Below, in pieces: positions 1,147 through 20,138 of a stretch of DNA of 64,000 nt (positions within the stretch are counted from its first letter, which is position 1; the number at the start of each line of letters is the position of its first letter). The translations under genes were made by a program, and so were the position numbers. Origin of the DNA: Spirochaetota bacterium (GTDB taxonomy: Bacteria; Spirochaetota; Spirochaetia; SZUA-6); contig JAADHF010000065.1 in NCBI GenBank assembly GCA_013151965.1, forward strand, positions 1-64,000, in the 5' to 3' direction. The notes beneath the pieces were generated by a model. The model did no database searches, was not told where the DNA came from, and was given only the letters and a program-made list of their open reading frames with translations.

Positions 1147-1291
1147 ATATTACAAAAATATCACTAATATACAGAGTTGTCGACTTTATATCCGAATTTC
1201 AGGATTCAGGCACTTAAGCGGCTATTTTGCACTTATTCTACAGTCTCAACGGACATGTGATGAATATTTATTTCTGCAATCAATTTAATTT

Positions 1292-2893
1292 CTATGCAAG
1301 CAGCTTTAAAAAAATATCGTTTAAATCATTCAACAGAGAAAGCCCTGATTCTCCGCGAATTACACTTTCCCTGTAGCGGCTGTAGATATGATGAATAGTT
1401 TTTTCCATGTTTACATCTACAACATCCAGATTGATAATTTTCCCATTGTTAAGATCGTTCGGTTCGTACTTATTTAAACCGCTGCCGTATTCTCTTCCCC
1501 TATCGTAAAGAATTTCCCTTGCAATATCCGTCAGCAGATAGGCAAAGAGAGTATCGATTCTATCCAAACCGGAGAAATTTACATATATGCAGTGGAAGGC
1601 AGTCAAATTGAGGATTCCTGCTTCGTTCCTTATAAAGCGAAGGCCTGTTCTGTTAAAAGTACCGGCCAATACCGGTGCCGGCGGACGGTTTTCCACTTTA
1701 TACCACGGCTTTCTGTGACCGGTTAAATACCTCTTATTAACCTTAAGTTCTTCGCCCAGCCGGATATATTCCGCTACATGTTCTTCCTTCCCGTTCCCTG
1801 CATTAAAAAGAAGAATATTAGAATCCTTTCTTTGCAGTTCATCATAATCGGCCTTTGTAAAAATGGGCGACTTCACCTGATTCGATTTACAAACACAGGG
1901 AAGTAAGAATTTGTCCGGAATGTTAAATTCGGATTGTTTTCTCTTATTAAAAGTAAAATAATCATTTGCACCGGTTGCAATACCGCGTATAATTCTGGCA
2001 TATTTTTTAAAGGGGACAAGACATCCGGATTTTCTTATGGTGCCTGAATTATAATATATTCTCCATTTCTCTGCCGGGTTCAGCTCCTTAAAACTTACAC
2101 TTTTCGAATTATTACTTAAAAGCAGGTCCGGATATTTGTTTAGTCTGCTGTAAGGCGAGGTTAGTTCTTCCATGCCGCTTAAAGATATAAAATTGACAGT
2201 CCGTTCTTTTCTGTCCTTCGAAAACAGAAAAATACCGGAAGTTGTCAGAACATCCTTAAAAACACCCGAATCGTTCTTAAATACTATAATATATCGAAGC
2301 GCCCTGCTTTCCGTCAGTATTTCTTTTACTATTTTTCCGTAATCCGCATTAAGGAATTCCAACGGAACAATAAAGGCGGCCCGCCCTCCGGGTTTTAACT
2401 GATGCAGCGATTTTATAATAAACAATGTGTAGATATTACTGAAACCGCTTAAACTAACCCCCAGGCGGGATTTAAACTCTGCCAGTGCTTCTTCTTTTCT
2501 CTTGAAATTGCGGAATGAAATATAAGGAGGGTTGCAGAGTATTCCGTCATAAAGCAAATTCCATCCGTGAAACAGAAAATCAGCAGGCAGGATTTCTGCA
2601 TTTATACTGCATGCGGAAAAAAGATTCACCGTTTTTCTTAATATATTTTCATCTATCTCGTAACCGGTAAATTTAAGATCAGGATTAATCTGATACGCCG
2701 CACGTATAAATACTCCCATTCCCACTGCCGGATCCAGAATATCCGTTTCTCCTCTTCCCCGGACAACCCAGGAAGCCATAAACCGGGCTATACAATAGGG
2801 TGTAAAGTACTGGGCATACTTTTTTCTTACAATAGAATCAATCGATTCAGAGTATTCGTTTTCCGGCTTGTCGCTAAAAATACTGAAGTTCAT
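1292..2893 (-). CDS. N6-adenine DNA methyltransferase, TaqI/Eco57I type
   Basis: A 533-residue class I SAM-dependent methyltransferase. Residues 27-45 (AQYFTPYCIARFMASWV) are the usual N-terminal element. DPAVGMG at 54-60 is the SAM-binding motif I, and NPPY at 121-124 is the adenine-specific catalytic motif. The C-terminal half, from about residue 290, looks like a TaqI-type target recognition region. No restriction endonuclease lies on either side, so it is either a solitary methylase or a single-chain remnant of a restriction-modification system. The ATG has no Shine-Dalgarno sequence; a TATAAT directly precedes it. Target sequence unknown. Confidence 0.85.
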   Translation of the reverse strand: MNFSIFSDKPENEYSESIDSIVRKKYAQYFTPYCIARFMASWVVRGRGETDILDPAVGMGVFIRAAYQINPDLKFTGYEIDENILRKTVNLFSACSINAEILPADFLFHGWNLLYDGILCNPPYISFRNFKRKEEALAEFKSRLGVSLSGFSNIYTLFIIKSLHQLKPGGRAAFIVPLEFLNADYGKIVKEILTESRALRYIIVFKNDSGVFKDVLTTSGIFLFSKDRKERTVNFISLSGMEELTSPYSRLNKYPDLLLSNNSKSVSFKELNPAEKWRIYYNSGTIRKSGCLVPFKKYARIIRGIATGANDYFTFNKRKQSEFNIPDKFLLPCVCKSNQVKSPIFTKADYDELQRKDSNILLFNAGNGKEEHVAEYIRLGEELKVNKRYLTGHRKPWYKVENRPPAPVLAGTFNRTGLRFIRNEAGILNLTAFHCIYVNFSGLDRIDTLFAYLLTDIAREILYDRGREYGSGLNKYEPNDLNNGKIINLDVVDVNMEKTIHHIYSRYRESVIRGESGLSLLNDLNDIFLKLLA

Positions 2894-2959
2894 ATTATAC
2901 AGAATGGTATTCTATCAGACTAATGTCCGTATTGGTAGTGTGCGGGTTAAGGGTCTATC

Positions 2960-3817
2960 TTACTCTGTGTTTACATGGATACGGGTATAGAGCCGCCTGT
3001 ACTCTTTGGGGGTCATTCCCAGTTTTTTTCTGAAACATCTTCTGAAATAGCAGGGATCGTTAAACCCGCTTCGGAATGCAACCGAATCTATATTATCTTT
3101 GCTGTTTATCAAAAGTGTACAGGCATGGTTTAACCTCCGTGTTTTTATATATTCGGAAATGGTAGTTCCGAAACTTTTTTTAAACAGCCGGTTAAGATAA
3201 TCGGGATTACATTCTGTTTCACCGGCTATTTTACCGACACTTAAATTTTCCGCAAACCGGGTTTTAATAATAGTCGTAGCTATTTCCAGCAAATGACTCC
3301 AATGAGAGGATTCATGCAGCCCGCGGGGAAGATTGGTACTTATTTCAACTAAAAGATGATAGACAATAAGGTTAGCGGTAACAGGACGAAGAAGACCCTC
3401 TTCCTGATCATGAAGAAACCATCTGAAAAGCTGGATAATTCTGGTAGGACGGGCTGCCTCTCTGTATTTCGGTATCACAAGCAGATTATGCGGGGGATAC
3501 AGCATAAAAGTCTCCGTATCACCACTTTTAACCGGAAGAACATCAAAATGAATCCAGTAATATTTTAAATCCGGTTCGTAAGGTATAGTACCGGCGTGTT
3601 CTATTCCGGGTTCCAGTATAATACTGTGCCCGGCGCCGACTTTATAATCTGCTAAACCTTCACGTATTCCAAGGATACCCTTCTCGACAAATATTATTTC
3701 GGTTGAGGATATTACCCTTTTAGGATGTATTCCTTCACCCCTGCTTATGAAAAGTCCGGCATTTTGAGCCTTTAGACAGGTGTTGAATTCAACATAAATC
3801 TGTTTTTTTGCATACAT
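2960..3817 (-). CDS. AraC-family transcriptional regulator
   Basis: A 285-residue protein with an N-terminal cupin-like sensor (about residues 20-155; GHSIILEPGIEHAGTIPYE is the typical ligand-pocket strand) and a C-terminal double helix-turn-helix (about 175-280). The HTH part contains LSVGKIAGETECNPDYLNRL and ends FRKKLGMTPKEYRR, the family signature. It lies divergently from the sugar ABC/GH127 operon starting at 4234 and is most likely its sugar-responsive activator. This role is inferred from position only. It points in the same direction as the methyltransferase gene, 66 bases downstream. Confidence 0.88.
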   Translation of the reverse strand: MYAKKQIYVEFNTCLKAQNAGLFISRGEGIHPKRVISSTEIIFVEKGILGIREGLADYKVGAGHSIILEPGIEHAGTIPYEPDLKYYWIHFDVLPVKSGDTETFMLYPPHNLLVIPKYREAARPTRIIQLFRWFLHDQEEGLLRPVTANLIVYHLLVEISTNLPRGLHESSHWSHLLEIATTIIKTRFAENLSVGKIAGETECNPDYLNRLFKKSFGTTISEYIKTRRLNHACTLLINSKDNIDSVAFRSGFNDPCYFRRCFRKKLGMTPKEYRRLYTRIHVNTE

Positions 3818-4079
3818 AAGTTAAATCCGCCCTCTTATTTTATTTGATAGAGAAACAATCGTCAAGAATACTTATAATTTCATGAATTCTATCAAGATGA
3901 TATAAATCTGATAGGTGAATAATGTCTCATGAACCTGCCTGTTGTGTACCCGTAAAAACTTCCGATTAACCGGCATTAAGATTTCATCAGAATACCCGGT
4001 AGAATACCGCAACGCCGCCGAATATTATTTAAGTATTAAAAAAGTAGGATTTGTCCTCTTATTCTGTTTTTGAATCATC

Positions 4080-4148
4080 TTGTAAAAAGGAGAACCCGGT
4101 GTAAAATTAATGCATAATCGGCAGTGCAGGATAATTATAACACTGCCG
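4080..4148 (+). promoter_or_regulatory. Candidate promoter and dyad upstream of the GH127 sugar operon
   Basis: In the 416-base gap between the AraC gene and the binding-protein gene, TTGTAA (4080-4085), 16 bp and TAAAAT (4102-4107) form a plausible promoter. A perfect 8-bp inverted repeat, CGGCAGTG (4119-4126) and CACTGCCG (4141-4148), lies just downstream. It could be an operator or a 5'-UTR hairpin. Nothing else was recognised in 3818-4233, including a promoter for the AraC gene. Confidence 0.35.
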
Positions 4149-4233
4149 GCGCTGCGGTAAAGTTTTAAAAAAAGCATACCTGCAGTCAGTCTCTTTATTG
4201 CCGCGCAATTTTAACAATCCCAAGGAGGTTCTT

Positions 4234-5505
4234 ATGAAAAAGGTTTTAATTATTTGGCTGCTTATCTTAGTGATTGCAGCCCTAACTTTTGCAGCCGGAG
4301 AACAGGAAGGTAAAGGAACCAATAAAATGGTTGCTTTACGTGTCTGGGACAGAGACTCGGTTATGGGTGATGTTGTGGACCAGTTCAACAAAAAGATGCA
4401 GTCAGAGGGCAAAAATATAAAAGCTCAGTTCGAATTAATACCCTATGGGCAACAGGTACCTAAATTCATGGCTGCAATGGCGGCAGGCCGGGCACCTGAT
4501 ATTTACAGCCTCGATCTTGTTCAATATCCCTATTTCATTTCTATCGGTGCTTTTAAAGATATTACCGAAGAATTCGAGGCTCTCCCTTTTAAGGACGAAT
4601 TGCCCCAGGGAATCCTGCGATTGGGGAAACAGAACAATAAGGTTTATGCCCTTCCTTACGAAATAGACCTTTCTGTTTTGAACTGGAGTAAGAATATGTT
4701 CAGAGCGGCAGGACTCGATCCTGAAAAACCACCCCTGACCTGGGATGACCTGATTAAAGATTCCGTTTCTTTAACCAAAGACAAAAACGGAGACGGGAAT
4801 CCTGATCAGTGGGGTTTTGCAGAGGTGGGAAACAATGCCGGTTCCTACATGTTCTGGTTTATGCCTTTTATCTGGGGCAACAATGGCCGTATGTTCGACG
4901 ATAACGGAAAAGTTGTATTTGATTCAAGGGAATCGAAGGAAGCTTTACAGCTCTGGTATGATTTGATCTATAAATACAAGGCAGCTCCGGTATCATCCGC
5001 CCAGTGGTCATCGGGAGACCGGTATAATGCCTTTATTGCCGGGAAACTCGGGCTCTTCCTGAGCGGAAATTTCTATATCAAAACTATTATGAAAGATGCA
5101 CCTGATTTAGATTTCGGAGTTACACTGATTCCTCACGGGAAAGGAAAAGGCGCTACTTTCGGAGGAGGAAACCTGATAGGTATTACCAGTCAGAGCAAAC
5201 ATCCTGCCGAAGCGTGGGAATTTATAAAGTTCGCTTTTTCCAAAGATGTTCTTGTTAACAATTATGCTCCGAAATTAATGCTTATACCAAGAAGGGACCT
5301 GTATGAGAACAAATATTATGCTAAATATCCGCAGATGAAGAAATATCAGGAAATCCTGGGTCATGCAATTACACCGTATACATATAAGTATAATCAGATT
5401 TACGATCCGGTTCTTTATTATCTTCAGGGTTCTCTGCTCGGTAAAATAAAAATCGACAGTGCTATAAAAGACCTTGCCGTTGAACTTAAAAAGGTAACAA
5501 AATAA
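4234..5505 (+). CDS. Sugar ABC transporter substrate-binding protein (family 1)
   Basis: A 423-residue extracytoplasmic binding protein that captures a sugar for the two permeases encoded next. It starts at the ATG after AAGGAGG (4222-4228); an open frame 12 codons longer lacks a ribosome site. The signal peptide (residues 1 to about 20) ends TFAAGEQEG with no cysteine, so it is probably released by signal peptidase I rather than lipidated. Family features include the RVWDRDSVMGDVVDQFNKKM start of the mature fold, PDIYSLD and WDDLIKDSVSLTKDKNGDGN. No ATPase gene is nearby, as is usual when a shared MsmK-type ATPase serves several sugar systems. The sugar may be an arabinoside, given GH127. 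Confidence 0.88.
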   Translation: MKKVLIIWLLILVIAALTFAAGEQEGKGTNKMVALRVWDRDSVMGDVVDQFNKKMQSEGKNIKAQFELIPYGQQVPKFMAAMAAGRAPDIYSLDLVQYPYFISIGAFKDITEEFEALPFKDELPQGILRLGKQNNKVYALPYEIDLSVLNWSKNMFRAAGLDPEKPPLTWDDLIKDSVSLTKDKNGDGNPDQWGFAEVGNNAGSYMFWFMPFIWGNNGRMFDDNGKVVFDSRESKEALQLWYDLIYKYKAAPVSSAQWSSGDRYNAFIAGKLGLFLSGNFYIKTIMKDAPDLDFGVTLIPHGKGKGATFGGGNLIGITSQSKHPAEAWEFIKFAFSKDVLVNNYAPKLMLIPRRDLYENKYYAKYPQMKKYQEILGHAITPYTYKYNQIYDPVLYYLQGSLLGKIKIDSAIKDLAVELKKVTK

Positions 5506-5528
5506 AATCTTAAAAGAGAATTATGCGG

Positions 5529-5557
5529 AACCGGGGGCAATAACAGCCTCCGGTTTT
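5529..5557 (+). terminator. Intercistronic stem-loop after the binding-protein gene
   Basis: AACCGGGGGC (5529-5538) pairs with GCCTCCGGTT (5546-5555), 10 bp with one G-U and a 7-nt loop, followed by a short T run. Hairpins here usually protect the binding-protein mRNA or reduce read-through, so that more binding protein than permease is made. Confidence 0.6.
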
Positions 5558-5580
5558 ATCAAACATATAGAGAGTATTGT

Positions 5581-6462
5581 ATGACATTAGGACAGTTGGC
5601 TTCAAAAAACAGAATGGGTTTACTTTTTATGCTGCCTTCCCTGTCTTTGTTAGTGGTTTTCTTTTTATTTCCCCTGACACAGGTTCTGTATATGTCCTTT
5701 CAGGATTGGAATGTTATGGGCAGCAGTACATGGGAGGGAATTAATAATTACATTAAAGCCCTTGGTTCCGGTGAATTCTGGCTTTCTTTATGGAACACCT
5801 TCATATATACGGTAATTGTAACACCATTAATCTTTGTTCCTGCAATTCTTCTTGCGGTCATGCTTAAGAAAACTACTTTCCGCACCGAAGTCATGCGGGT
5901 TGTTATTTTTATTCCATTTACAATTTCTTTTGTTTCGGCAAGTTATATATGGTCCTGGATTTATAATGATACATACGGAATTCTCAATTTTCTTTTATCA
6001 AAGATAGATTTAATCAGCAGGCCTGTAAACTGGCTGGGAGAAACGTGGAGAGCCAGAGTGATGATTTCGATCATGGTTGCATGGAAAACGCTGGGTTTTT
6101 CCATGCTCATATTTATCTCCGGACTTCAGAGCATATCACAGGAGATCTATGAAGCAGCCGATATCGACGGCGCATCCCGGATACAAACATTGTTTTTAAT
6201 TACCATACCTATTCTAAGGCCGACTATTTTCCTGGCCCTGGTTATTTCGATTGCCGGGTCTTTTAAGGCCTTCGATCAATTTTTTATCATGACAAACGGC
6301 GGTCCTATGCGAACAACCCAGACAATAGTTATGTATATAAATAAAATCGCTTTTGAAAATTATGATATGGGAACAGGTTCTGCCGTATCCGTTTTATTCC
6401 TTATCCTGTTACTTTCCATTAGTTATCAGCAGATTCGTATGGGAGGATATACAGGTGAATAA
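5581..6462 (+). CDS. Sugar ABC transporter permease, MalF/UgpA type
   Basis: A 293-residue inner-membrane protein with six predicted membrane segments. The first (LLFMLPSLSLLVVFFLFPLT) begins near residue 14. The cytoplasmic EAA loop, EAADIDGASRIQTLFLITIP, near residue 200 is where the ATPase docks. It forms the channel with the next gene's product. The gene lies 75 bases after the binding-protein gene and overlaps the next permease by 8 bases. Length and topology are normal for the family. Confidence 0.9.
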   Translation: MTLGQLASKNRMGLLFMLPSLSLLVVFFLFPLTQVLYMSFQDWNVMGSSTWEGINNYIKALGSGEFWLSLWNTFIYTVIVTPLIFVPAILLAVMLKKTTFRTEVMRVVIFIPFTISFVSASYIWSWIYNDTYGILNFLLSKIDLISRPVNWLGETWRARVMISIMVAWKTLGFSMLIFISGLQSISQEIYEAADIDGASRIQTLFLITIPILRPTIFLALVISIAGSFKAFDQFFIMTNGGPMRTTQTIVMYINKIAFENYDMGTGSAVSVLFLILLLSISYQQIRMGGYTGE

Positions 6463-7297
6463 GAGGCATTCATTTTACAAGTTACTAATTGCACTTCCGG
6501 CTTTACTTCTTTCTCTTCTGTTCCTTGCCCCCATAGCCTGGAGCCTTATTTCTTCCATAAAACATACCGCCGATATCCTTAAATATCCGCCTATATTATT
6601 TCCGAAAAATATAACTTTGGAACAGTATATCAAGTTATTCCGGGCGGGAGACGGAGTTTTCCTTCTATTTATCCGCAATACAATCATCATGACCACTTTT
6701 ACTATTTCCCTGGTATTAATTATCAGCGTTTTAGCTTCTTATGCCTTTGTTTCGCTGCCTTTTAAGGGCAGTAATTTTATTTTTATTTTGATTCTGTCAA
6801 TCTTTATGGTGCCTTTTCAGGCATTACTTATTCCCTTGTATAGTATTTTAAATAAATTGAGGCTCCTGGATACAAAAGTCGGTATGGTTCTGGTATATTC
6901 CACCTTTTTTATGCCTTTTTGTATTTTCATGTTCAGGAACTACTTTTCGGGCATTCCTGTTTCCATACGGGAGAGTGCCCGTCTGGACGGAGCATCCGAA
7001 TTGACAATTCTGTTAAAATTTTATCTTCCCCTCTCATTACCCGCAGTCGCCACTATTGTGGTATATCTATTTCTGGAAACCTGGAACGACTTTGTCTTAT
7101 CCCTGATTTTTTCTTCATCGAACAATGTAAAAAATATTCAGGTTGGTATAATGAACTTCGGAAGACAGAGATTCCAGAGTGATTGGGGAATTATTAACAG
7201 CGGGTCTATATTCAGCCTTCTGCCGACTATAATAATATTCCTCATGCTGCAGAAATACTATATTCAGGGTATGACTGCAGGAGCATCAAAAGAATAA
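6455..7297 (+). CDS. Sugar ABC transporter permease, MalG/UgpE type
   Basis: A 280-residue permease with six predicted membrane segments and an EAA loop (ESARLDGASELTILLKFYLP). A longer open frame exists upstream, but the GTG at 6455 follows GGGAGG (6441-6446) at normal spacing and gives the usual MalG length, with mature sequence starting NKRHSFYKLLIALPALLL. It overlaps the preceding gene by 8 bases, so the two are translationally coupled. The product pairs with the MalF-type permease, and the GH127 enzyme follows after 15 bases. Confidence 0.9.
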   Translation: MNKRHSFYKLLIALPALLLSLLFLAPIAWSLISSIKHTADILKYPPILFPKNITLEQYIKLFRAGDGVFLLFIRNTIIMTTFTISLVLIISVLASYAFVSLPFKGSNFIFILILSIFMVPFQALLIPLYSILNKLRLLDTKVGMVLVYSTFFMPFCIFMFRNYFSGIPVSIRESARLDGASELTILLKFYLPLSLPAVATIVVYLFLETWNDFVLSLIFSSSNNVKNIQVGIMNFGRQRFQSDWGIINSGSIFSLLPTIIIFLMLQKYYIQGMTAGASKE

Positions 7298-7312
7298 TTT
7301 AGGGAATGGAAA

Positions 7313-9328
7313 ATGAGTAAAAACCAAAAGACTTACGTAAAAGCGAAACTACAGTATCTGCCTGCCGGCACTATAAAACCCCGCGGCTGGCTTCTGAATC
7401 AATTAAACATCCTGGCGCAGGGATTAACAGGGCACCTGGAGGAGATATGGCCTTCGGTGGGTCCGGACAGCGGCTGGCTGGGCGGAGACGGTGAAAATTG
7501 GGAGAGAGGACCATACTACCTGGACGGATTGTTCCCTCTGGCTGAAATCCTTGATAACGAAGATTTAAGAAAACGCGCCCGGAAATGGATTCGCCGGACA
7601 CTGGATAACCGCAGCAAGGAAGGGTTCTTCGGGCCTGAGAGTAATCCTGACTGGTGGCCCCGTACAGTCATGTTGAAAGTACTTATTCAGTACATCGAGG
7701 TTTCGGACGATAAACAGGCTTTAACTCTTATCGAAGATTTTTTCCGGTATATGGATTCGATGCTGGATGAAAGACCCTTACAAATGTGGGCATACGCCCG
7801 GGGATATGAAGGCCTTGTTTCTTTACTCTGGCTGACGGAAAAGAAACATTCGGAACTACTGTTAAAGATTGCAGAAAGGATTGCCTCCCTGTCGATGAAA
7901 TGGGAAATATTTTTCAAAGATTTCCCCTATACAAAACCTGCCGGTTATTATCTGAACTGGCAGTACTATCAGGAAAAAATAAATACCATTATCTCTGCCG
8001 ATAAAAACCAGCCCACAGCAATAAGTGAAGAAAAATATATTGAACTTTTAGGCGAAGAAAAATATCGTGAACTTTTTGCATTGTATCATCAGACTCATGG
8101 AGTCAACATAGCTATGGCATTAAAATATCCCGCTTATGCCTATCAGCTTACCGGTAATATGGAATACCTCGATGCGGTCAGGAAGGGTTATCATAATCTG
8201 CTCAAATATCACGGACAGGCCACAGGTGTTTACAGCTGCGATGAACATCTTAACGGAAAAGAGCCTTTTCAGGGGACCGAACTGTGTACGGTTGTCGAGA
8301 TGATGTTCAGTTTCGAAGAGATAATTCGTGTAACCGGGGATCTAAGCTGGGGAGATACCCTGGAAGAAATTGCCTATAACGCTCTTCCGGCTCCTGTTGC
8401 CGCCGACGGATGTTCACATCAATACAACCAGCAGGTTAATCAAATTATCTGTTCGGTTGCACCAAGGCAATGGTATAATAACGGTGACGACTCCAATATC
8501 TTCGGCCTGGAACCTAATTTCGGCTGCTGCACTGCAAATATGCATCAGGGATGGCCGAAACTGGTTCGCAGTTCCTGGATGGTGGAAAAAGGAAAGAATA
8601 AAGAACCTGATACCCTTGTGTTCGTCACTTATGCTGCACTTTCCGCCGAAATCCGGCTGTCCGGGACCGGGGTAAAAGTCACGATGGATACGGATTATCC
8701 CTTTAACGGCCGGATCATCCTTACCATGCAGGCGGACACAGATGTAAGATTTAATATTAAATTCAGGATTCCCCGCTGGGCGGAAGATTATGTTCTTGAA
8801 ATTAAAGACGAAGGGGCCGGCCGTATAACCCGTACTATTACAAACCGCGGAAAGGTGCTTATTCTAAAGGGCCTAAGCGGCTCGGAGAAAATAGAAATCC
8901 GCTTTCCCATGGAACCCAGGCTCGAAAGGACAGGTAAAGGTTGTGTAATAAAAAGGGGTCCTTTACTGTTTGCCCTGCCGCTTAAGTGCCAAAAAAAAGA
9001 ACTTACTGCCCGCGGCAGATTTTCCGATTGGGAGCTGTATCCGGAATCCGAATGGAGGTACGCACTCCTTCCGGATTCCATAGAGGACTGTGAAGTAAGC
9101 TACATACCCGTCCGCTGCGGCGGGTTTAAAAGCAGTCCTCCGCCTGTTGCCCTTAAAGTCCGGGGGATTAAAATCGGCAACTGGGATATAGAAAATAATT
9201 CGGCAGGTAAAATTCCTTCCGAACCGGTACCGGCAGATTCCCAAAAAAACGCCGGGCCGGTATTCTTGACCCTGATTCCTTACGGATGCACGGATCTGCG
9301 TATTGCATTGTTTCCTTTGCTGAAATAA
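7313..9328 (+). CDS. GH127-family glycoside hydrolase (beta-L-arabinofuranosidase-like, DUF1680)
   Basis: A 671-residue protein without a signal peptide, so it acts in the cytoplasm on imported sugar. It begins LPAGTIKPRGWLLNQL, the conserved start of the DUF1680 family. Residues Glu323 and Cys325 (GTELC) and Cys405-Cys406 (FGCCTAN) match the ExC and CC zinc site of HypBA1, in which a zinc-bound cysteine is the nucleophile. The fold is an (alpha/alpha)6 barrel followed by beta domains. Its place as last gene of a sugar ABC operon suggests that it cleaves the imported arabinoside, or an analogue, since GH127 and its relatives vary in specificity. RBS GGGAATGGAAA is weak. Confidence 0.85.
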   Translation: MSKNQKTYVKAKLQYLPAGTIKPRGWLLNQLNILAQGLTGHLEEIWPSVGPDSGWLGGDGENWERGPYYLDGLFPLAEILDNEDLRKRARKWIRRTLDNRSKEGFFGPESNPDWWPRTVMLKVLIQYIEVSDDKQALTLIEDFFRYMDSMLDERPLQMWAYARGYEGLVSLLWLTEKKHSELLLKIAERIASLSMKWEIFFKDFPYTKPAGYYLNWQYYQEKINTIISADKNQPTAISEEKYIELLGEEKYRELFALYHQTHGVNIAMALKYPAYAYQLTGNMEYLDAVRKGYHNLLKYHGQATGVYSCDEHLNGKEPFQGTELCTVVEMMFSFEEIIRVTGDLSWGDTLEEIAYNALPAPVAADGCSHQYNQQVNQIICSVAPRQWYNNGDDSNIFGLEPNFGCCTANMHQGWPKLVRSSWMVEKGKNKEPDTLVFVTYAALSAEIRLSGTGVKVTMDTDYPFNGRIILTMQADTDVRFNIKFRIPRWAEDYVLEIKDEGAGRITRTITNRGKVLILKGLSGSEKIEIRFPMEPRLERTGKGCVIKRGPLLFALPLKCQKKELTARGRFSDWELYPESEWRYALLPDSIEDCEVSYIPVRCGGFKSSPPPVALKVRGIKIGNWDIENNSAGKIPSEPVPADSQKNAGPVFLTLIPYGCTDLRIALFPLLK

Positions 9329-9400
9329 AGGCAGTTCCTGATCTTTAATTCAAGTTCCATAAAGAATAGTCTCATTTTCCCATTGCTATACGAAATTCTG

Positions 9401-9428
9401 TTGCATTCGAGCATCCGTTCCATATACT
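9401..9428 (+). promoter_or_regulatory. Candidate promoter of the MCP gene
   Basis: TTGCAT (9401-9406), a 16-bp spacer and TATACT (9423-9428) precede the chemoreceptor gene by 45 bases. This is a good sigma-70-type match. Confidence 0.5.
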
Positions 9429-9473
9429 TATACTTAATAATTAATAAAACATAACGCAGGGAGAAATAATAAA

Positions 9474-11501
9474 ATGAAGATCAGTATAAAAATGCGGATG
9501 AATCTTATTATTATCGGAACCGCTTTCTTTATTATGCTCCTTGTAGGGTTAACAATACTGATAATTTCCAGGTACAATCAGCTGACCTCTAATTTTATTT
9601 CACTTGACGAGTTTAATCTCTATTTTTCTCAAAATACATCGGGACTGAACAATTTTTATATTTCCAAAGACGAGGAACTGTTAAGAAAGGGCGTTCCGGA
9701 TAAGGATACGATGTATAAACTTCTCGATAAACTTGAAAAAAATGCAATAAACAAGGGCATTCGTAATAATTTTATATTGGTAAAGCAGAATTTTATCCGG
9801 CTGTTTCAGGCCATAGAGAGAGAGATTGTGTTAGAAAAACAGCGGGGTCTTACCGGGGATAAGGGAATCCGCAGGCAATTCAGAGACAAAGTACATGCCA
9901 TAGAGAAAGAACTGAATAAATTAAACAATAAATCTCTTATGATTAATCTTTTACTTATGCGTATGTATGAAAAAAACTATATAATCAGCAAAACTCAAAA
10001 GTACATAGATTTATATAAATCACAGCTTAAAGCATTTATCAAGGATATCAACAACAGCGGATATTCTCCCCGTGTAAAAACAGCACTCATAAAACTGCTG
10101 ACCGGTTATAAGAGTTCCTTTCTGAAACTAACCTCGATAGACTCGGAAATAGCTATCGTACGTGCAACCATAGAAAATAGAACAAAGCAGATAGACAGGT
10201 GGATGTTCGAGACAATGGAGCAAATAGTAATTTCTGTTAATCAGTACAAGAGGGCAATAAGGCTCATTGCAATAGGTGCCGGCCTATTTGCAATTTTAAT
10301 GACAATTCTGATCGTACTTACAAGTGCCAGGGCAATAACAAAACCCCTTTTTAAAATGGTAGACTTTGTAAAAATCATCTCTACCGGGGATTTAGGAAAA
10401 CAGATAGATATTAAGAGCAGAAACGAACTGGGTACGCTTGCGGATGCTCTTAATCATCATATCCAAAGCCTGCGAAATTTAATCGGGAATATTCTTAAAT
10501 CCATGAATAAACTCAGCACAACAGGTCAGAATCTCTCCGAAAATATAGAACAAACAGCAGGAGCGATAAACAGCATTACACATCATACCGAAGAAATACA
10601 GAAACAAACAGAAGATCAGTCCGTTAGTGTTGCGCAGACTTCCTCTGCAGTAGAAGAGATGACAAGAAATATAGAAAACCTCAGCATTGCAATCGAAACG
10701 CAGGTCTCCAATATCACCGAATCTTCCGCGTCCATAGAGGAGATGGTTGCAAATATCAAATCGGTTACCCGGAATATAGAAAATGTAAGCCATTCGGTTT
10801 CCACACTCGAAGGTGCTTCTAATTTGGGCAGAGAAAAACTGGATGATGTGCGGACAATAATAATAGATATTGCAAAGCAATCGGAGAACCTGCTCGAAGC
10901 AAACAAAATGATATCCGAAATAGCGGGGAAAACGAACCTCCTTGCAATGAACGCCGCAATAGAGGCAGCACATGCCGGAGATGCCGGAAGGGGATTTGCC
11001 GTTGTTGCCGATGAAATTAGAAAATTGGCAGAAGATGCGTCTGCGCAGTCCAAAGTTGTAGAGGCGAATTTAACCGGAACTAAAGAGGCAATAGACCATG
11101 TTGTGGACAGTTCCTTAAAAGCGGAAAATTCTTTTGCGGATATTGTTGAACTTGTAAAAACCGTAAGTGATGTGGTAGAGGAAATTAAACAGGCCCTTAT
11201 CGAGCAGAGTCAGGGGAGTAACCAGATTCTGGAAGCTCTTAAAAATATGAATGATATCACAGTATCGGTTAACCAGGGAGCGGATGAAATGAAAACAGGA
11301 AATAAACAGATACTGGAAGCAATAGCAAACCTGAACAATGTAAGCAATGCCACAAAGGAAAATATGGGGCGGATAACCATAAGAATCTCCGAGATCAACA
11401 GTGCTGTGACAAATGGTCAGGAATTAACACGCAATAACGAAGCATATATAGAAGAAGTGGTAAAAGCCGGTTCGCAGTTTAAAGTTAAAGATGAGGTGTA
11501 A
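9474..11501 (+). CDS. Methyl-accepting chemotaxis protein
   Basis: A 675-residue chemoreceptor. Membrane segment 1 is at about residues 9-31. A mostly helical periplasmic sensor (about 32-260) follows, then membrane segment 2 (about 263-284) and a HAMP domain (about 285-340). The coiled-coil signalling domain has its conserved hairpin tip around 483-522 ([20 protein letters not shown], then [13 protein letters not shown]), which contacts CheA and CheW. The helical sensor contains no recognised ligand domain, so the stimulus is unknown. There is no C-terminal CheR-binding pentapeptide. GGGAGAAATAATAAA precedes the ATG. The gene ends 3 bases from the convergent helicase gene. Confidence 0.93.
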
Positions 11502-13404: not shown

Positions 13405-14118
13405 TTAAGCGCCCAGATAAGCTTTTTTTACATCGGGGCTGTTAAGTAAGTATTCCGATTTACCCTCGATAATGATGTTCCCGGTTTCGAGAACATATCC
13501 GCGCTGGGAGAATTGTAATGCCATACGTGCGTTTTGTTCCACTAACAAAATGGCAGTACCTTCTTTGTTAATTTGTTTCAGTGCGTCGAAAACGTTAAGC
13601 ATGAGCAGCGGCGCCAAACCCATCGATGGTTCATCCAGAAGCATTAACTTGCGGGCGCTGATAAATGCCCGTCCCACGGCTAACATCTGTTGCTCTCCGC
13701 CGCTGAGCGTACCCGCCTTTTGTGTTTTACGTTCTTCCAAACGCGGAAATATACTAAAAACACGCTCGATGTCATTTCTTACGGCTTTTTTGTCTTTACG
13801 TGCGAAAGCCGAGAGGATAATGTTTTCCATTACAGTCAGATTCCCGAACAGTCTCCTTCCTTCAGGGACATGAGAAATTCCCAATTTGCTTACAACCTTG
13901 TCGGCAGGGTAGTCCAGTAAATTCTTTCCCATAAAAGTCATTTTGCTGCCTGGTTCCACACTCTGCATACGTGAAATAGACATCAACGTTGTGCTTTTGC
14001 CTGCACCGTTGGCCCCGATAATGCAGACAACTTCCCCTTCGTCAATGTGGAAATTGATTCCGTGCAATGCTTTAATTTTCCCGTAAGAAGATTTTAAATT
14101 CTCAACTGATAACAACAT
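13405..14118 (-). CDS. livF: Branched-chain amino acid ABC transporter ATP-binding protein LivF
   Basis: A 237-residue ABC ATPase: Walker A GANGAGKST near residue 34, signature LSGGEQQML, Walker B KLMLLDEPSMGLAP, switch histidine replaced in the usual LivF way (LLVEQNA). LivF and LivG form the heterodimeric motor for import of leucine, isoleucine, valine or related amino acids or amides. The length is typical. It overlaps livG by one base and is the last gene of the livKHMGF operon. Confidence 0.93.
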   Translation of the reverse strand: MLLSVENLKSSYGKIKALHGINFHIDEGEVVCIIGANGAGKSTTLMSISRMQSVEPGSKMTFMGKNLLDYPADKVVSKLGISHVPEGRRLFGNLTVMENIILSAFARKDKKAVRNDIERVFSIFPRLEERKTQKAGTLSGGEQQMLAVGRAFISARKLMLLDEPSMGLAPLLMLNVFDALKQINKEGTAILLVEQNARMALQFSQRGYVLETGNIIIEGKSEYLLNSPDVKKAYLGA

Positions 14119-14888
14119 CAGATTTTAACCTCTTTCCCCAAATAAGCATCGATTACCCTGGGATTATTCTGGATCTCTTCAGGGGAGCCCTCGGCAATGA
14201 CCTCACCGAAATCTAAGGTCTGGATACGTTCGCAAAGATCCATTACAAACTTCATTCTGTGTTCAATAAGTAAAATGGCCACTCCCAGTTTGTCGTGGAT
14301 ATGACGGATAACATTAACCAAATCCTGAAGTTCTTCTGAGTTCATCCCTGCAGTAGGTTCATCCAACAGGAGAAGTTTGGGATTAATTGCCAGGGCCCGG
14401 GCAATTTCCACCCGCCGCTGTAAACCATAGGGCAAATTCGGCACCAACTGATCGGTCAATTTACCAATACCTACCAATTCCATTATTTTTATTGCCTTTT
14501 CCGTGTTTTCTTCTTCCTGTTGATTACGCTTTTTTGTATCAAAAAAAGCGCCGATTAAACCGTAAGTGATCTGTGAAAATTGTGCCATTTTGATATGATC
14601 CAAAACACTCATGTGACGCCAGAGCCGCAGGTTCTGAAAGGTTCTGCCCAGTCCGAGTGCAGCAATTTTATGCGAAGGATACTTAATAATATTCTTTCCG
14701 CGAAAGTGTATGCTGCCCTCTGTTGGTTTGTATACTCCTGTAATCAGGTTAAAAATGGTCGATTTTCCGGCACCATTAGGACCGATGAGACCATGAATTT
14801 CTCCTGGTTCAATCTTAAAATTGTAGTCGTGTACCGCCCGCAATCCTCCGAAAAAGCGTGTCATATGTTCAACATAAAGTAATGGCAT
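14118..14888 (-). CDS. livG: Branched-chain amino acid ABC transporter ATP-binding protein LivG
   Basis: A 256-residue ABC ATPase with Walker A GPNGAGKST, the Q-loop, a signature region LPYGLQRRVEIARAL (LSGGQ replaced, as is common in LivG), Walker B KLLLLDEPTAGMN, and LLIEHRM with the switch histidine. It begins YVEHMTRFFGGLRAV, the LivG N-terminus. It pairs with LivF, encoded immediately downstream, and follows livM by 1 base, so the operon is tightly coupled. Confidence 0.93.
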   Translation of the reverse strand: MPLLYVEHMTRFFGGLRAVHDYNFKIEPGEIHGLIGPNGAGKSTIFNLITGVYKPTEGSIHFRGKNIIKYPSHKIAALGLGRTFQNLRLWRHMSVLDHIKMAQFSQITYGLIGAFFDTKKRNQQEEENTEKAIKIMELVGIGKLTDQLVPNLPYGLQRRVEIARALAINPKLLLLDEPTAGMNSEELQDLVNVIRHIHDKLGVAILLIEHRMKFVMDLCERIQTLDFGEVIAEGSPEEIQNNPRVIDAYLGKEVKI

Positions 14889-14889
14889 A

Positions 14890-16203
14890 TTATTTATCTT
14901 CTTCCTTTTTGTTTTTCGCTCTTAATAATTTCTTCGGATCGAAATCCTTAAAAGCAATAAGCCCGGTCGGACGGAAAATCATCACCAGAATAAGTAATAA
15001 AGGAATGATGATCCACTTGAAAATTTCCAGAGGACGCAGCATTTCGCTGAGCAAGTTAAACCCAACAGCACCGACAATAGAGCCGATAACAGAATTCAGG
15101 CCACCAAAGTAAACCATGGCCAATACTTCGGCCAATTTCTTAATCCCAAAACTTCCGGGGTTTACATAGCGCATTACGTGTGCAAAGAGACCGCCTGCAA
15201 TGCCTGCCCAGAAAGCTGCAAACATAAAAGCCGTCATCTTGGTCTTTTTGGTGTCAACAGTCATGGCATTTGCTGCCGTTTCATTATCACGCACTGCATT
15301 TAGCGCTTTGCCTAAGGTCGAACGTACGAAGTTGTTAATAATCCAGACTGCAAGTACAGTCCATAAGAATACTACAGGCAATGTAGCCAAATTCGGCTGG
15401 TTCATGAAACCACGTGCACCGCCGAATATCTGTAAGTTTTCAAGGAGACTTTTTATTATAAATGTAAATGCAAGCGAAATGATAGCCAAATAGTCACCGC
15501 GGGTATTAAAAGCAGGAACAGCCACTAATAAAGAAAAAAGAGAGGCCATTAATCCGCCTAATATCAATGCTACCGGGAATAAGAATGGTGCTAAAACCGG
15601 CGGCAGCAATGCCGCACCTAAAACACTGTCATTAACAAAAAAAAGTACGGTTATAATAGAAGCGGTGTAAGCGCCCAGAGCTATAAAACCCGGATGAGAA
15701 CAGGAAAATTCCCCCATATAACCGTTTATAACATTCAGGCTTAAAGTAACAATAACGGCTATCATTATGAGTTTGGCTAAAAGAACCCGGTAATCGTTCA
15801 TGACTGCCCATGTATTTATAACAACATAAAGCAGAACAATATGGATAACCGCCGATATCCAGAATGGATATTGCTGTAATTTACCGGCAATATAGTTAGC
15901 TAAGGACTTTGTCAGCCGGGCACCAATGGCGATCGGCAGGACATAGATAATAAGCAGGTAAATAATTACGCCGGGAATAAGCACAGGCTGTTTAAGCACA
16001 ACAGTAAATCCGAAAAGGGCAGGCACATCGCTCATACCTAAAACCATGGCAAGGTAAGGACCTATAAAGGTTTCTAAAAGCGTTGATATCAGTAAACCTG
16101 CCAGCCATCCTAACACAGGCACCTGTATGTAAGGGGCCAAAAGTTTATCACGGTATATTTTAAATTTACTCCGCCCGGCAGGTAGAGAACCCGTTGCTTT
16201 CAT
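14890..16203 (-). CDS. livM: Branched-chain amino acid ABC transporter permease LivM
   Basis: A 437-residue inner-membrane permease with about ten hydrophobic segments. The core LivM motifs include LNVINGYMGEFSCSHPGFIALGAY, here with NGYMGEFS for the usual NG..GQ.S, and NAVRDNETAA in the cytoplasmic coupling loop. The extra N-terminal roughly 120 residues with additional membrane segments resemble E. coli LivM rather than the shorter forms. AAGGAACTATTC precedes the ATG. It forms the pore with LivH. Confidence 0.92.
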   Translation of the reverse strand: MKATGSLPAGRSKFKIYRDKLLAPYIQVPVLGWLAGLLISTLLETFIGPYLAMVLGMSDVPALFGFTVVLKQPVLIPGVIIYLLIIYVLPIAIGARLTKSLANYIAGKLQQYPFWISAVIHIVLLYVVINTWAVMNDYRVLLAKLIMIAVIVTLSLNVINGYMGEFSCSHPGFIALGAYTASIITVLFFVNDSVLGAALLPPVLAPFLFPVALILGGLMASLFSLLVAVPAFNTRGDYLAIISLAFTFIIKSLLENLQIFGGARGFMNQPNLATLPVVFLWTVLAVWIINNFVRSTLGKALNAVRDNETAANAMTVDTKKTKMTAFMFAAFWAGIAGGLFAHVMRYVNPGSFGIKKLAEVLAMVYFGGLNSVIGSIVGAVGFNLLSEMLRPLEIFKWIIIPLLLILVMIFRPTGLIAFKDFDPKKLLRAKNKKEEDK

Positions 16204-16243
16204 GAATAGTTCCTTTGTGTCACTATAAATATTATATCGCCCA

Positions 16244-17167
16244 TCACAGCCTCAACCTGGCACTATAAGGTTCGCCAAAGAAACCATTGGGAAGAAAAGT
16301 AAGAATCAGTAAAATTATAGAGTATGCAATGAAATCCCGCATTGTCGATGGAAAAATCATGACAACAAAGATCTCAATAAATCCCAGGAGAAATCCTGCA
16401 GCAGCAGAGCCTAGAATGGAACCGCGCCCTCCGAGGATAGCGGCAACAAACGCTTTCCACCCGATTATAATACCCATATAGGGACCGAGTACCGGATAAG
16501 CAATACCAAAGAGCACTCCGGCTGCTGCTGCCAGTGCCGAACCTATGGCAAATGTCAGTGCAATGATGGTATTCAGAGGAACACCCATAAGAGGAGTTAT
16601 AACAAAATCATAGGCCATGGCCCGCATGGCCATGCCCCATTTAGTGTGCCGGATAAACAGATGCAGCATAAAAGTCAGTGATAAAGCGACAACTATAATG
16701 AGGATTTTTTGATTTGTAATGAAAACACCGGAGATATTGTACGTTACAGGCTTAATCAGAGGAGGAAAAGCCCGGCGGCTGGCCCCTAACAGGGCAAGGT
16801 TGCCTGTTTCTAAAATTATACCGATCATAAGACCGGTAATAGCGGCCGAAGCCCGGGGAGCGTCCCGTAATGGCCGGTAACCTATACGTTCTACAGCCAT
16901 GCCGACGAAAGCGTTCAAGAACATGGCTATGAGCATGGTTAATGTGATAATAACCCAGCTGGGAAGTATTATATTGCCCACAGCCGCCAGTGCAACAAGC
17001 CCTGTCGCTGTAAAGAAGCCAATATAGGCTCCGACCATAAAAATATCGCCGTGAGCAAAGTTGAAAAGCATAAGTATGCCGTATACCATAGAATATCCTA
17101 TAGCAACAAGAGCGTAAAAACTGCCCCATTGCAGCCCGTTTACTAGGTTTTGTAAAAAATACTGCAT
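16244..17167 (-). CDS. livH: Branched-chain amino acid ABC transporter permease LivH
   Basis: A 307-residue permease with about eight membrane segments. It starts MQYFLQNLVNGLQWGSFYAL, the classic LivH N-terminus (NGL..G..YAL.A.GY), followed by VYGILMLFNFAHGD. It partners LivM. The gene follows livK after 135 bases that contain a stem-loop, and precedes livM by 40 bases. Confidence 0.93.
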   Translation of the reverse strand: MQYFLQNLVNGLQWGSFYALVAIGYSMVYGILMLFNFAHGDIFMVGAYIGFFTATGLVALAAVGNIILPSWVIITLTMLIAMFLNAFVGMAVERIGYRPLRDAPRASAAITGLMIGIILETGNLALLGASRRAFPPLIKPVTYNISGVFITNQKILIIVVALSLTFMLHLFIRHTKWGMAMRAMAYDFVITPLMGVPLNTIIALTFAIGSALAAAAGVLFGIAYPVLGPYMGIIIGWKAFVAAILGGRGSILGSAAAGFLLGFIEIFVVMIFPSTMRDFIAYSIILLILTFLPNGFFGEPYSARLRL

Positions 17168-17230
17168 TTAAATAGCACCTCGTTCCTATAAAGAAAGACG
17201 ATACAAAGACTCTTTATATCGCCCTTTATA

Positions 17231-17261
17231 ATTGATGCCCGCTTTATAGACGAGCATCAAT
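17231..17261. other. Stem-loop between livK and livH
   Basis: ATTGATGC (17231-17238) and GCATCAAT (17254-17261) form a perfect 8-bp inverted repeat with a 15-nt loop. In the livK-livH transcript it lies after the binding-protein stop codon, a place where hairpins stabilise the upstream message. On the minus strand it lacks a T run, so it is not a good terminator. Confidence 0.4.
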
Positions 17262-17302
17262 TTGTTTTTTATCAGTTACCTCGTGATGGTGTTGTCATTT
17301 AT

Positions 17303-18478
17303 TTACGGTTTTACCTGCTTAAAGAATGTAAATTGCCCCTTGTCATTGATTCTTACAATAACGGCGCTTTTAATCGGATCACCGTTTCCGGTAAATGTCA
17401 TTTCACCTGTAATGCCCTTGAAATTTTTGATCGTTGCCAGCGCATCACGCACATTCTTGCGGTCAGTGTCTATATTTCCTGTAAGCTTTCCTGCATTCTG
17501 AATTGCGGTTTTTGCCAGGTTCAAAGCATCCCAGGTCAGTGCTGCGACATCATCGGGCACATAACCATATTCGGCTTTGTAGCGGTCGATGAATACTTTT
17601 GTAGCACCCTTGGCACCGGCAGCAGCATAATGCGTGCTGAAAAAATCGCCGTAAACATCTTTCCCCGCCAGTTTTACAAGTTCGGCAGAGCCCCAGGAAT
17701 CGCTTCCCGTTATAACCTTGTTCCAGCCTAATTGGTGAGCCTGCTTAACAATAAGTGCTACTTCGTTGTAATACTGAGGAGTAAAGAGAAACTGTGCGTC
17801 CGAATGAATAATCGCGGTAAGTTGAGCGCTAAAATCTTTATCACCCGTAGTGAAGCTTTCATATGCTACAACAGAACCGGGACCATGAAGCTTTTCCCAT
17901 GCCTTTTTAAAATATTCCGCCAGCCCTTTGGGATAATCACTGGCAATGTCATAGAGAACGGCTGCTTTTGTGTAGTGGAATTGGTTTGTGACAAAATTAG
18001 CAATAACTCTGCCCTGAAACGGATCGAGAAAACAAGCACGGAAAACCCATGGACGGTTAAGCGTAGTCTTAGGATTCGTTGACCACGGGCTGATCATCGG
18101 GGTCTTATAATTGTTGGCTACTTCACCGGCAGGAACTGCCTGCTTGGACGACTGCGGGCCAATAATAATAAGAACCTTATCCTGGGTGATCATCTTTGTA
18201 TTGGCCTTAACAGCAGAAGCTGCCTTCGACTCATTATCTTCGATGACCAATTTAACTTTGTACTTTTTTCCGCCGACTTCCAGACCGCCTGCTTTGTCAA
18301 TATCGGACAGCCACATTTCGGCAGAGTCTTTTGTCCCCTCACCTACTTTCGGAATACTCCCGGTAAGCGGGGCATTAATCCCGATTTTAATTACTTTGAC
18401 CTCTGCTTTACCGGCTGCCGACAGGGCTGTAAGAGGAAGGATCAGAACCAGCGCTAGTAGTACAATACATTTTCGCAT
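17303..18478 (-). CDS. livK: Branched-chain amino acid ABC transporter substrate-binding protein
   Basis: A 391-residue periplasmic binding protein. The signal peptide (residues 1 to about 21) ends LSAAGKAE with no cysteine. The mature part begins KIGINAPLTGSIPKVGEGTKDSAEMW, the type-I (Leu/Ile/Val) binding-protein start, and contains IIGPQSSKQAVPAGEVAN. The ligand is probably a branched-chain amino acid; relatives bind urea or short amides. AGGAGGT precedes the ATG. First gene of the liv operon. Confidence 0.92.
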   Translation of the reverse strand: MRKCIVLLALVLILPLTALSAAGKAEVKVIKIGINAPLTGSIPKVGEGTKDSAEMWLSDIDKAGGLEVGGKKYKVKLVIEDNESKAASAVKANTKMITQDKVLIIIGPQSSKQAVPAGEVANNYKTPMISPWSTNPKTTLNRPWVFRACFLDPFQGRVIANFVTNQFHYTKAAVLYDIASDYPKGLAEYFKKAWEKLHGPGSVVAYESFTTGDKDFSAQLTAIIHSDAQFLFTPQYYNEVALIVKQAHQLGWNKVITGSDSWGSAELVKLAGKDVYGDFFSTHYAAAGAKGATKVFIDRYKAEYGYVPDDVAALTWDALNLAKTAIQNAGKLTGNIDTDRKNVRDALATIKNFKGITGEMTFTGNGDPIKSAVIVRINDKGQFTFFKQVKP

Positions 18479-18535: not shown

Positions 18536-18647
18536 GGAGAATATCAGTTCGGGGTGGTATTTAATCGATTTGCCTTAAAAAAACCTTTATGCAGAAATAT
18601 TTTCAGACTGATATCCACGTACATAATTATATTTATTAATCGTGCTA

Positions 18648-18676
18648 TTGTCTAAACCCTTATGTAATGTTTATAT
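18648..18676 (+). promoter_or_regulatory. Candidate promoter of the riboswitch-led unit
   Basis: TTGTCT (18648-18653), a 17-bp spacer and TTATAT (18671-18676) place the transcription start near 18683, about 16 nt before the aptamer-like RNA. Confidence 0.45.
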
Positions 18677-18698
18677 TCTCTATATTGATAAAAAGAAC

Positions 18699-18788
18699 GG
18701 GGTGATGAGGTTCACTCCCGGGATTAAACCTGTCAAATACGGAACCGGCAGTTGAACAACCGAATAAAGTCTACCGGCTGATGACCTC
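18699..18788 (+). ncRNA. Fluoride riboswitch-like (crcB RNA) aptamer
   Basis: Two conserved blocks of the crcB aptamer are present. The first is GGGGTGATGAGGTTCACTCC (18699-18718), in which GGGGTG pairs with CACTCC as the pseudoknot. The second is GGCTGATGACCTC (18776-18788). GAGGTT (18707-18712) pairs with GACCTC (18783-18788) as P1. An AAAC element (18726-18729) sits where expected after the first block. The hairpin between the blocks is longer and less regular than in characterised members and is the weak point. The 3' strand of P1 is also the 5' arm of the terminator, which predicts that ligand switches expression on. Confidence 0.65.
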
Positions 18789-18825
18789 TGGAAGGAATTA
18801 ACAAATTTCTCCCGGAGGTTTTTTT
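18784..18825 (+). terminator. Riboswitch-controlled intrinsic terminator
   Basis: ACCTCTGG (18784-18791) pairs with CCGGAGGT (18812-18819). After one mismatch the stem continues with AGGAATT and AATTTCT around an AACA loop, about 15 bp in all. Seven T residues follow (18819-18825). The first arm overlaps aptamer helix P1, so the two structures exclude each other. The terminator ends 13 bases before the downstream start codon. Confidence 0.85.
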
Positions 18826-18838
18826 AGAGAGGATTGTC

Positions 18839-19756
18839 ATGATCTATATGAACCTTAAATCCGCCTTTAAAAAAGGCGGGTGTCCTGTATGCAGATTGTT
18901 GCGTGAGCAGGAGGAGAGGTATTTTTTTAACCTGCTCTACGAGAATGTCAATGACGGGCCCACACGAGGTCTGATAATCAGCAGTATGGGTCTTTGTTCC
19001 TATCATGCCTGGGAACTCCAGGCGAGAGAGTTAAAGGAATGGAACGACGGGCTCGGTACCGGTATAATATACGAAGATCTTGCAGGCCGTGTCCTAAATG
19101 AACTTTCGCATTACTTAAGCCCTTTAAAACAGCATCTTTTTGAAAAATATAAAGATTCGAAAATAAAAATAGATGCCGGACATAAAACAGATACCGGACG
19201 AACCTGCAGATGGAAGAGCTCTCTGCCGGGAAAATATCTCTTAAAGATTATTAAGGCAGTAACTAAAAAGAAAAAACCTTCCGAAGCTCTTGCCGGCAGA
19301 TTATCACCGGAAAAAGAATGTCATATATGTAAATCCCTTAACCAATCGGAAGAAGCCTATCTTGAATGGCTTGTAAGCGGTTTATCCGCTCCTCTGTTCC
19401 GGGAGGCTTATCTTGCTTCCGGCGGACTCTGCCTGCCGCACCTGCGAAAAATACTTAAATTCGTCGAAGAAAAATGGGCCGCTTATCTTTTAATAGACAA
19501 GGCGGAAAGAGAGCTTAAGACCCTTGACAACAATCTTAAAGAATATGTGCGGAAACATGCATGGGATTTTAGATTCGAACCCAAATATCCCGAAGAGCAG
19601 GCCTCATGGATACGTGCAGTCGCATTTTTTGCAGGCGAATACAGAGGAAATGCGGCGGATACGGTTATTTCCACAAGAGAAAAAGCCCTGTTCGATTACA
19701 GCAGGCATTCACAGCATCATTCTAAAGATAATAAGGAAAATAAATCCTTAAGATAA
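18839..19756 (+). CDS. DUF6062 family protein with two CxxC...CxxH modules
   Basis: A 305-residue cytoplasmic protein of unknown function. It contains two similar modules about 145 residues apart: Cys15, Cys18, Cys53, His56 and Cys161, Cys164, Cys198, His201. Each begins C-P/H-x-C and ends GLC-x2-H about 35 residues later. This suggests two metal sites (probably zinc) arisen by internal duplication. The segments between are helical and charged. AGAGAGG (18826-18832) supports the ATG at 18839; a second ATG lies 3 codons in. The gene is led by the riboswitch-like RNA and followed after 37 bases by the Mth938-like gene. No enzyme activity can be assigned. Confidence 0.75.
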   Translation: MIYMNLKSAFKKGGCPVCRLLREQEERYFFNLLYENVNDGPTRGLIISSMGLCSYHAWELQARELKEWNDGLGTGIIYEDLAGRVLNELSHYLSPLKQHLFEKYKDSKIKIDAGHKTDTGRTCRWKSSLPGKYLLKIIKAVTKKKKPSEALAGRLSPEKECHICKSLNQSEEAYLEWLVSGLSAPLFREAYLASGGLCLPHLRKILKFVEEKWAAYLLIDKAERELKTLDNNLKEYVRKHAWDFRFEPKYPEEQASWIRAVAFFAGEYRGNAADTVISTREKALFDYSRHSQHHSKDNKENKSLR

Positions 19757-19793: not shown

Positions 19794-20138
19794 ATGGAAG
19801 TACAGGAACTGTCCTTTGGGAAAATTGTAATCGACGGGAAAGTTTACGACAGAGATATCGTTATATCCAATGGTAAAACGGAATTCCGTGAAAAATCCGT
19901 CTCAAGAATGATGAAGGGGAAATACGGACATACGCCGTTAACAATACATGAAAATATTCCCTGGGACTGTGAGATACTTATCGTGGGTACGGGGATGTAC
20001 GGAAGCCTGCCCGTAACCGAAGATGTGTATAAAAAAGCAAAAGAGCTCGGCGTCGAGCTGATTTTAAAAAGGACAAAAGAGGCGGCAAAAAATCTAAATA
20101 CGCCTGATACGAACTTCGTCCTGCACATTACCTGCTGA
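19794..20138 (+). CDS. Mth938-like domain protein
   Basis: A 114-residue single-domain protein of the Mth938/NDUFAF3 fold family (DUF498). Motifs are SFGKIVIDGKVYDRDIVI at the start, ILIVGTGMYG near residue 63 and LILKRTKEAAKNLN near the end. Members occur singly in bacteria and archaea and as assembly factors in mitochondria; the bacterial role is not established. AAGGAG precedes the ATG. It follows the DUF6062 gene in one unit, so both would be under the same riboswitch-like control. Confidence 0.85.
   Translation: MEVQELSFGKIVIDGKVYDRDIVISNGKTEFREKSVSRMMKGKYGHTPLTIHENIPWDCEILIVGTGMYGSLPVTEDVYKKAKELGVELILKRTKEAAKNLNTPDTNFVLHITC

Follow-up and report, generated by a model that had tools for sequence, protein, structure and literature searches.

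Does the RNA leader that precedes an operon with no known fluoride gene in a Spirochaetota bacterium belong to the crcB fluoride riboswitches, and if so, do the genes behind it serve in the response to fluoride? Fluoride was reportedly named as the ligand of these RNAs by Baker et al. in 2012. The locus lies in what we call the window, the 64,000 nt of contig JAADHF010000065.1 (assembly GCA_013151965.1) that were analyzed. A first-pass annotation had assigned the downstream genes to the DUF6062 and Mth938-like families, neither of them a known fluoride exporter, and Pfam agrees, with DUF6062 and DUF498 as its only matches there. The Mth938-like gene starts 37 nt downstream of the DUF6062 gene, and the two probably form one operon.

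The DUF6062 leader and its proposed switching

The features of the locus are as follows.

18648-18677, plus strand: promoter-like site TTGTCT-18-TATATT (consensus scan, 9/12 matches; pattern match only)
18684-18838, plus strand: leader, between the promoter-like site and the DUF6062 start codon (18839)
18699-18718, plus strand: hairpin 1, GGGGUG / CACUCC, with the 8-nt loop AUGAGGUU (18705-18712)
about 18719-18754, plus strand: insert of 36 nt, absent from most canonical aptamers
18730-18734 with 18747-18751, plus strand: hairpin inside the insert, CUGUC / GGCAG, exact fold uncertain
18760-18777, plus strand: weak second stem, CCG (18760-18762) with CGG (18775-18777), 12-nt loop
18779-18789, plus strand: second conserved block UGAUGACCUCU, including the pseudoknot strand 18784-18788
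18784-18825, plus strand: intrinsic terminator, ACCUCUGG (18784-18791) / CCGGAGGU (18812-18819) plus an inner stem
18839-19756, plus strand: DUF6062 gene, 305 aa, two CxxC...CxxH modules (Pfam PF19538, 53.4 bits, cut-off 27)
19794-20138, plus strand: Mth938-like gene (DUF498), 114 aa (Pfam PF04430, 42.3 bits, cut-off 33)

The promoter-like site is also kept in G002, a genome of the same genus, and would place the start of transcription at about 18684, so that the aptamer would be made first. A near-consensus divergent promoter (11/12; 18626-18654, minus strand) overlaps this region and faces a branched-chain amino-acid-type ABC transporter operon (13405-18478, minus strand).

Within the segment 18698-18791, both conserved blocks recognized in the first-pass annotation are present, as is the pseudoknot, in which GAGGU of the hairpin-1 loop (18707-18711) pairs with ACCUC (18784-18788) and U712-G783 is a possible extension. 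Helix P1, which had also been drawn, was not recovered: no helix abuts the aptamer, and the best flank pairing is a 5-bp, A/U-rich one lying away from it. P1 is outside the Rfam consensus structure applied here. The AAC-containing joint lies between the insert and the second stem. This stem has only 3 bp, with a one-base offset and an A-C mismatch adjoining UGAUG, and is identical in G002. We rejected a second stem made of CCGG 18745-18748 and CCGG 18774-18777, as in G002 the 5' strand becomes UCGA and the 3' strand is unchanged.

The terminator has an energy of -17.8 kcal/mol and is followed by seven U's (18819-18825). Its 5' arm includes the 3' strand of the pseudoknot, and because strand 18784-18788 is common to both, pseudoknot and terminator are mutually exclusive. 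The strand that the aptamer shares with the terminator, earlier drawn as that of P1, is thus the pseudoknot strand. The single-strand minimum free energy structure of the whole leader is, as expected, the terminator form; this method cannot show the pseudoknot. Terminators often overlap the motif in crcB RNAs, where the ligand should raise expression (PMC2864571), and the window leader resembles these RNAs in the overlap of its terminator arm with the pseudoknot strand.

Under this design, binding of fluoride with Mg2+ would fix the pseudoknot in place (18707-18711 with 18784-18788) and withhold the 5' arm of the terminator, allowing read-through into the DUF6062 and Mth938-like genes. Without fluoride, 18784-18791 would pair with 18812-18819 and transcription would end at the run of U's. 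Fluoride stress would thus turn on synthesis of DUF6062, for which we propose a protective role rather than export. The leader is, on its sequence elements, very probably a crcB-type fluoride ON riboswitch, enlarged by a segment that separates hairpin 1 from the AAC joint; we infer that fluoride is its ligand, that it switches, and what the protein may do.

Match to the fluoride riboswitch family

Against the Rfam model RF01734, the window leader scored 18.4 bits (E = 0.016 in 701 bases) and the leader kept before the same gene in G002 scored 21.3 bits, both below the gathering score of 34 bits. Our own fluoride model was built from 38 aptamers from spirochaetes and DUF6062 loci, with the window and its relative left out. 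Across these references, 98% of the cells in hairpin 1, pseudoknot, and second stem are paired, both partners vary in 8 of the 11 pairs, and the pseudoknot covaries. With this model, the window leader reached 24.5 bits (E = 1.5e-4 in 96 kb, and a modest 0.0055 genome-wide) and the G002 leader 29.3 bits (E = 2.8e-4 genome-wide), and in each genome the leader ranked under the canonical switches and over everything else. Every column invariant in the 38 aptamers is kept in both leaders, as compared by eye. A descriptor scan found no other site in the window with an equally long stem and pseudoknot and with spacing that fits the second stem.

The window leader shares with RF01734 a hairpin 1 with the AUGNNGNN loop, the pseudoknot, the UGAUG block followed by CU, and a terminator on the pseudoknot strand. 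It differs in its 36-nt insert after hairpin 1, its 3-bp second stem, its score (18.4 versus 34 bits), and a target gene that is not among the targets named in PMC2864571 and PMC11139923. The low score is explained by the insert and the weak second stem rather than by a missing core. Other insert-bearing fluoride switches, many of them at 20-32 bits, also fall short of the Rfam cut-off, so that 34 bits discriminates poorly for the insert form. The 8-nt loop starting AUG on hairpin 1, the core residues, the pseudoknot, and the terminator platform all fit membership in RF01734, and the Rfam score does not. The leader is thus best described, by its sequence, as an insert-bearing fluoride riboswitch variant that by strict Rfam score is not an RF01734 member. 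The first-pass annotation had staked its reading on this score and on homologous leaders taken together; the score is low, yet the G002 leader backs the structure.

Two leaders of exactly the window's type are known, those of the window and G002. Their cores agree at 58 of 60 positions, compared with 121 of 148 (82%) four-fold degenerate sites in the two downstream genes, and from these sequences we judge the core to be under purifying selection. One of the two core changes, U716 to C in G002, turns a G-U pair of hairpin 1 into G-C and leaves the stem as it was; the terminator pairs are all kept through changes of the G-U/A-U type, and the insert hairpin reads CUGUC/GACAG. The second stem, whose sequence is the same in both leaders, for that reason shows no covariation. 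From hairpin 1 to UGAUG, the linker measures 60 nt in the window and 85 nt in G002, compared to about 20 in most canonical aptamers (alignment A4), which confirms the earlier remark that the central part departs from the consensus. In G003 the gene is present and no switch was detected for it.

Inserts of this kind are found in other fluoride switches. One or more extra hairpins follow hairpin 1, ahead of the AAC joint, in the spirochaete switches L098, L099, and L101-L107 (the last seven from genus g76), which precede Na+/H+ antiporter-type genes (Pfam basis: L098) and score 22-36 bits, most of them below the Rfam cut-off. Inserts at the same site also occur in Chloroflexota switches before DUF6062 (L133, L150, L161, L200, L202, L207, L210, and L216). 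Compared with L098, L099, L101-L107, L133, L150, L161, L202, and L210, the window has its insert at the same site, but the inserts are unrelated in sequence and most of those switches have a stronger second stem. By this comparison, the central departure is mainly an insert plus a weak second stem, common elsewhere, rather than the sign of a new ligand.

Two of these loci yielded separate observations. The L133 insert (2728-2764) resembles a CRISPR repeat (CRISPR-DR9, 43 bits versus a cut-off of 45), an identity that we rejected, there being no array with that repeat in its genome. At L210, a T-box leader-like match (2220-2560, minus strand; 86 bits versus a cut-off of 93) lies near the fluoride switch and runs in the opposite direction.

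Fluoride switches upstream of DUF6062

The window's own genome holds three above-threshold fluoride switches and thus uses this switch class. Two of them (L022 on G000:C119 and L023 on G000:C4) each precede a MutS-like ATPase gene pair and the third a hydrogenlyase-type membrane subunit, gene names here being given by sequence resemblance. MutS-like and hydrogenlyase-type genes are both among the targets named for the crcB motif (PMC2864571).

The first-pass annotation had proposed a search for the same RNA upstream of DUF6062 in other genomes, and such RNAs do recur. When all RF01734 matches were compared with all PF19538 matches in 247 Spirochaetota genomes, DUF6062 was immediately preceded, on its own strand, by an above-threshold switch in G105, G145, and G159, an arrangement for which we estimate a chance expectation of roughly 1e-4 from switch density; G037, on the same contig as L116, is a fourth such locus. 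We also searched named genomes for one DUF6062 subfamily without reference to the RNA, which gave 69 loci. A switch lies directly upstream at 12 of them (L116, L132, L133, L136, L138, L140, L150, L161, L162, L163, L167, and L180), five of these switches being above the Rfam cut-off. Since several of the 12 had fed our own model, we took an independent sample of 101 Chloroflexota genomes, 25 of which have DUF6062. Here the model matched directly upstream and on the same strand at L200, L202, L207 (above the Rfam cut-off), L210, and L216, with a weak sixth match at L214. In total, about 22 loci carry the arrangement, nine of them above the Rfam cut-off, in Spirochaetota, Chloroflexota, Rokuibacteriota, and an Archaeoglobi archaeon. 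The DUF6062 switch is the sole model match in four of the genomes, those of L133, L136, L163, and L180, although these are drafts and such counts depend on completeness. As most DUF6062 genes have no detected switch, the link is recurrent and not universal.

These loci bear on what the window leader may be if it is not a working fluoride switch. A variant aptamer on the fluoride scaffold with another ligand, which would explain a DUF6062 target in place of a known fluoride gene, would suit the insert, the weak second stem, the sub-threshold score, and the unusual target. We consider it unlikely, given that all invariant core positions are kept, that DUF6062 genes elsewhere are under canonical fluoride switches that pass the threshold, and that switches preceding antiporter-type genes have inserts as well. 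Marginally less likely still is a decayed fluoride switch, in which the aptamer has ceased to work, leaving the terminator as a fixed attenuator. The weak second stem would fit decay, as would linkers that are long and unequal (60 nt in the window, 85 nt in G002), but long linkers are found elsewhere, such as the 70 nt of L210, the core is better conserved than the four-fold sites, and the changes in the terminator and hairpin 1 preserve pairing. Least credible is an ordinary terminator behind a leader that is aptamer-like by chance, for although the window match taken alone has a genome-wide E of only 0.0055, the leader is conserved in a second genome, lies where expected before a gene family tied to fluoride switches elsewhere, and is the one site in the window to fit the descriptor with such a long stem and pseudoknot. 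We therefore retain the insert-bearing fluoride switch as our reading.

DUF6062 as a candidate fluoride-response family

In an alignment of DUF6062 with 60 relatives, the only invariant residues are the eight Cys/His ligands of the two CxxC/CxxH modules. An AlphaFold2 model is all-helical (pLDDT 85.7); we found no credible sequence match among solved structures and no fold match in the PDB at E <= 0.001. The protein is predicted to carry two metal sites, probably for zinc. In the tree, the window protein groups with Chloroflexota DUF6062 proteins (support 96/92), including the second DUF6062 copy of each fluoride operon at L133 and L150. It shares the CxxC/CxxH pairs of PF19538, at 53.4 bits, whereas the best-scoring, ETIPVWDA-type members of that Pfam family form a separate clade (nine tree rows), for which no fluoride switch was found in our sample.

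Several genes are commoner at DUF6062 loci with a switch than at those without: enolase, Na+/H+ exchanger, histidine-phosphatase (PGM-like), and MFS genes, as well as MutS-like, zinc-ribbon/HEAT, and hydrogenlyase-type genes. Genes listed as frequently under fluoride switches include those for enolase, antiporters, and formate hydrogenlyase (PMC11139923). The neighbours of DUF6062 point to metabolic protection under fluoride. At L150 (Anaerolineales), fluoride genes are densely packed in an island at positions 964-11020, where three switches accompany genes for a P-type ATPase, two DUF6062 proteins, a PGM-like phosphatase, a zinc-ribbon/HEAT protein, an enolase, and a MutS-like protein. Two small families without a Pfam match (clusters 3 and 5) also recur beside DUF6062 at switch loci (members at L162:9412-9825 and L162:10493-11041, relatives in L133, L140, L154, and L180) and are possible further fluoride-response genes.

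The proposal in the first-pass annotation that both genes of the operon may be new fluoride-response functions fared differently for each. For DUF6062 it is well supported, by the switches immediately upstream of the gene in several bacterial phyla and an archaeon and by the subclade to which the window protein belongs. For the Mth938-like gene the only support is its operon position, seen in a single genus, and we rejected it as a conserved fluoride partner; among the loci examined, it adjoins DUF6062 only in the window's genus.

Like DUF6062, the exporters CrcB/Fluc and CLC-F are targets of fluoride switches, but DUF6062 differs from them in fold and has no predicted membrane-channel character. 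Fluoride switches are present in G000-G003, which represent the genus and family of the window, yet neither CrcB/Fluc (PF02537) nor CLC-F (within PF00654) was found there. Taken alone, this absence is unremarkable, given that 76 of 120 good Spirochaetota genomes lack CrcB, and we do not press the idea of DUF6062 as a stand-in for missing exporters.

From these sequence data, a role of DUF6062 in fluoride tolerance is likely; any particular way of acting, be it by shielding or reactivating enolase or by dealing with displaced metal, is speculation. We think it reasonably probable that DUF6062, leaving aside the ETIPVWDA-type clade, forms a hitherto undescribed family for fluoride response in bacteria and archaea, helical and with two metal sites, that works unlike exporters, antiporters, or enolase overproduction and possibly protects enzymes hit by fluoride. 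In our search, which covered literature outside subscription, we found no mention of DUF6062. What appears to be new is a widespread, fluoride-linked gene family for which we found no earlier description.

Fluoride riboswitches have so far been a main guide to the genes with which microbes cope with fluoride. Insert-bearing switches tend to fall below the Rfam cut-off, and part of the fluoride regulon of Spirochaetota and Chloroflexota therefore goes unannotated. To the genes found by this guide, DUF6062 adds a candidate family of undescribed function, the sole detected switch target in some genomes, whose link to fluoride is now directly testable and which is probably an overlooked part of microbial fluoride survival.
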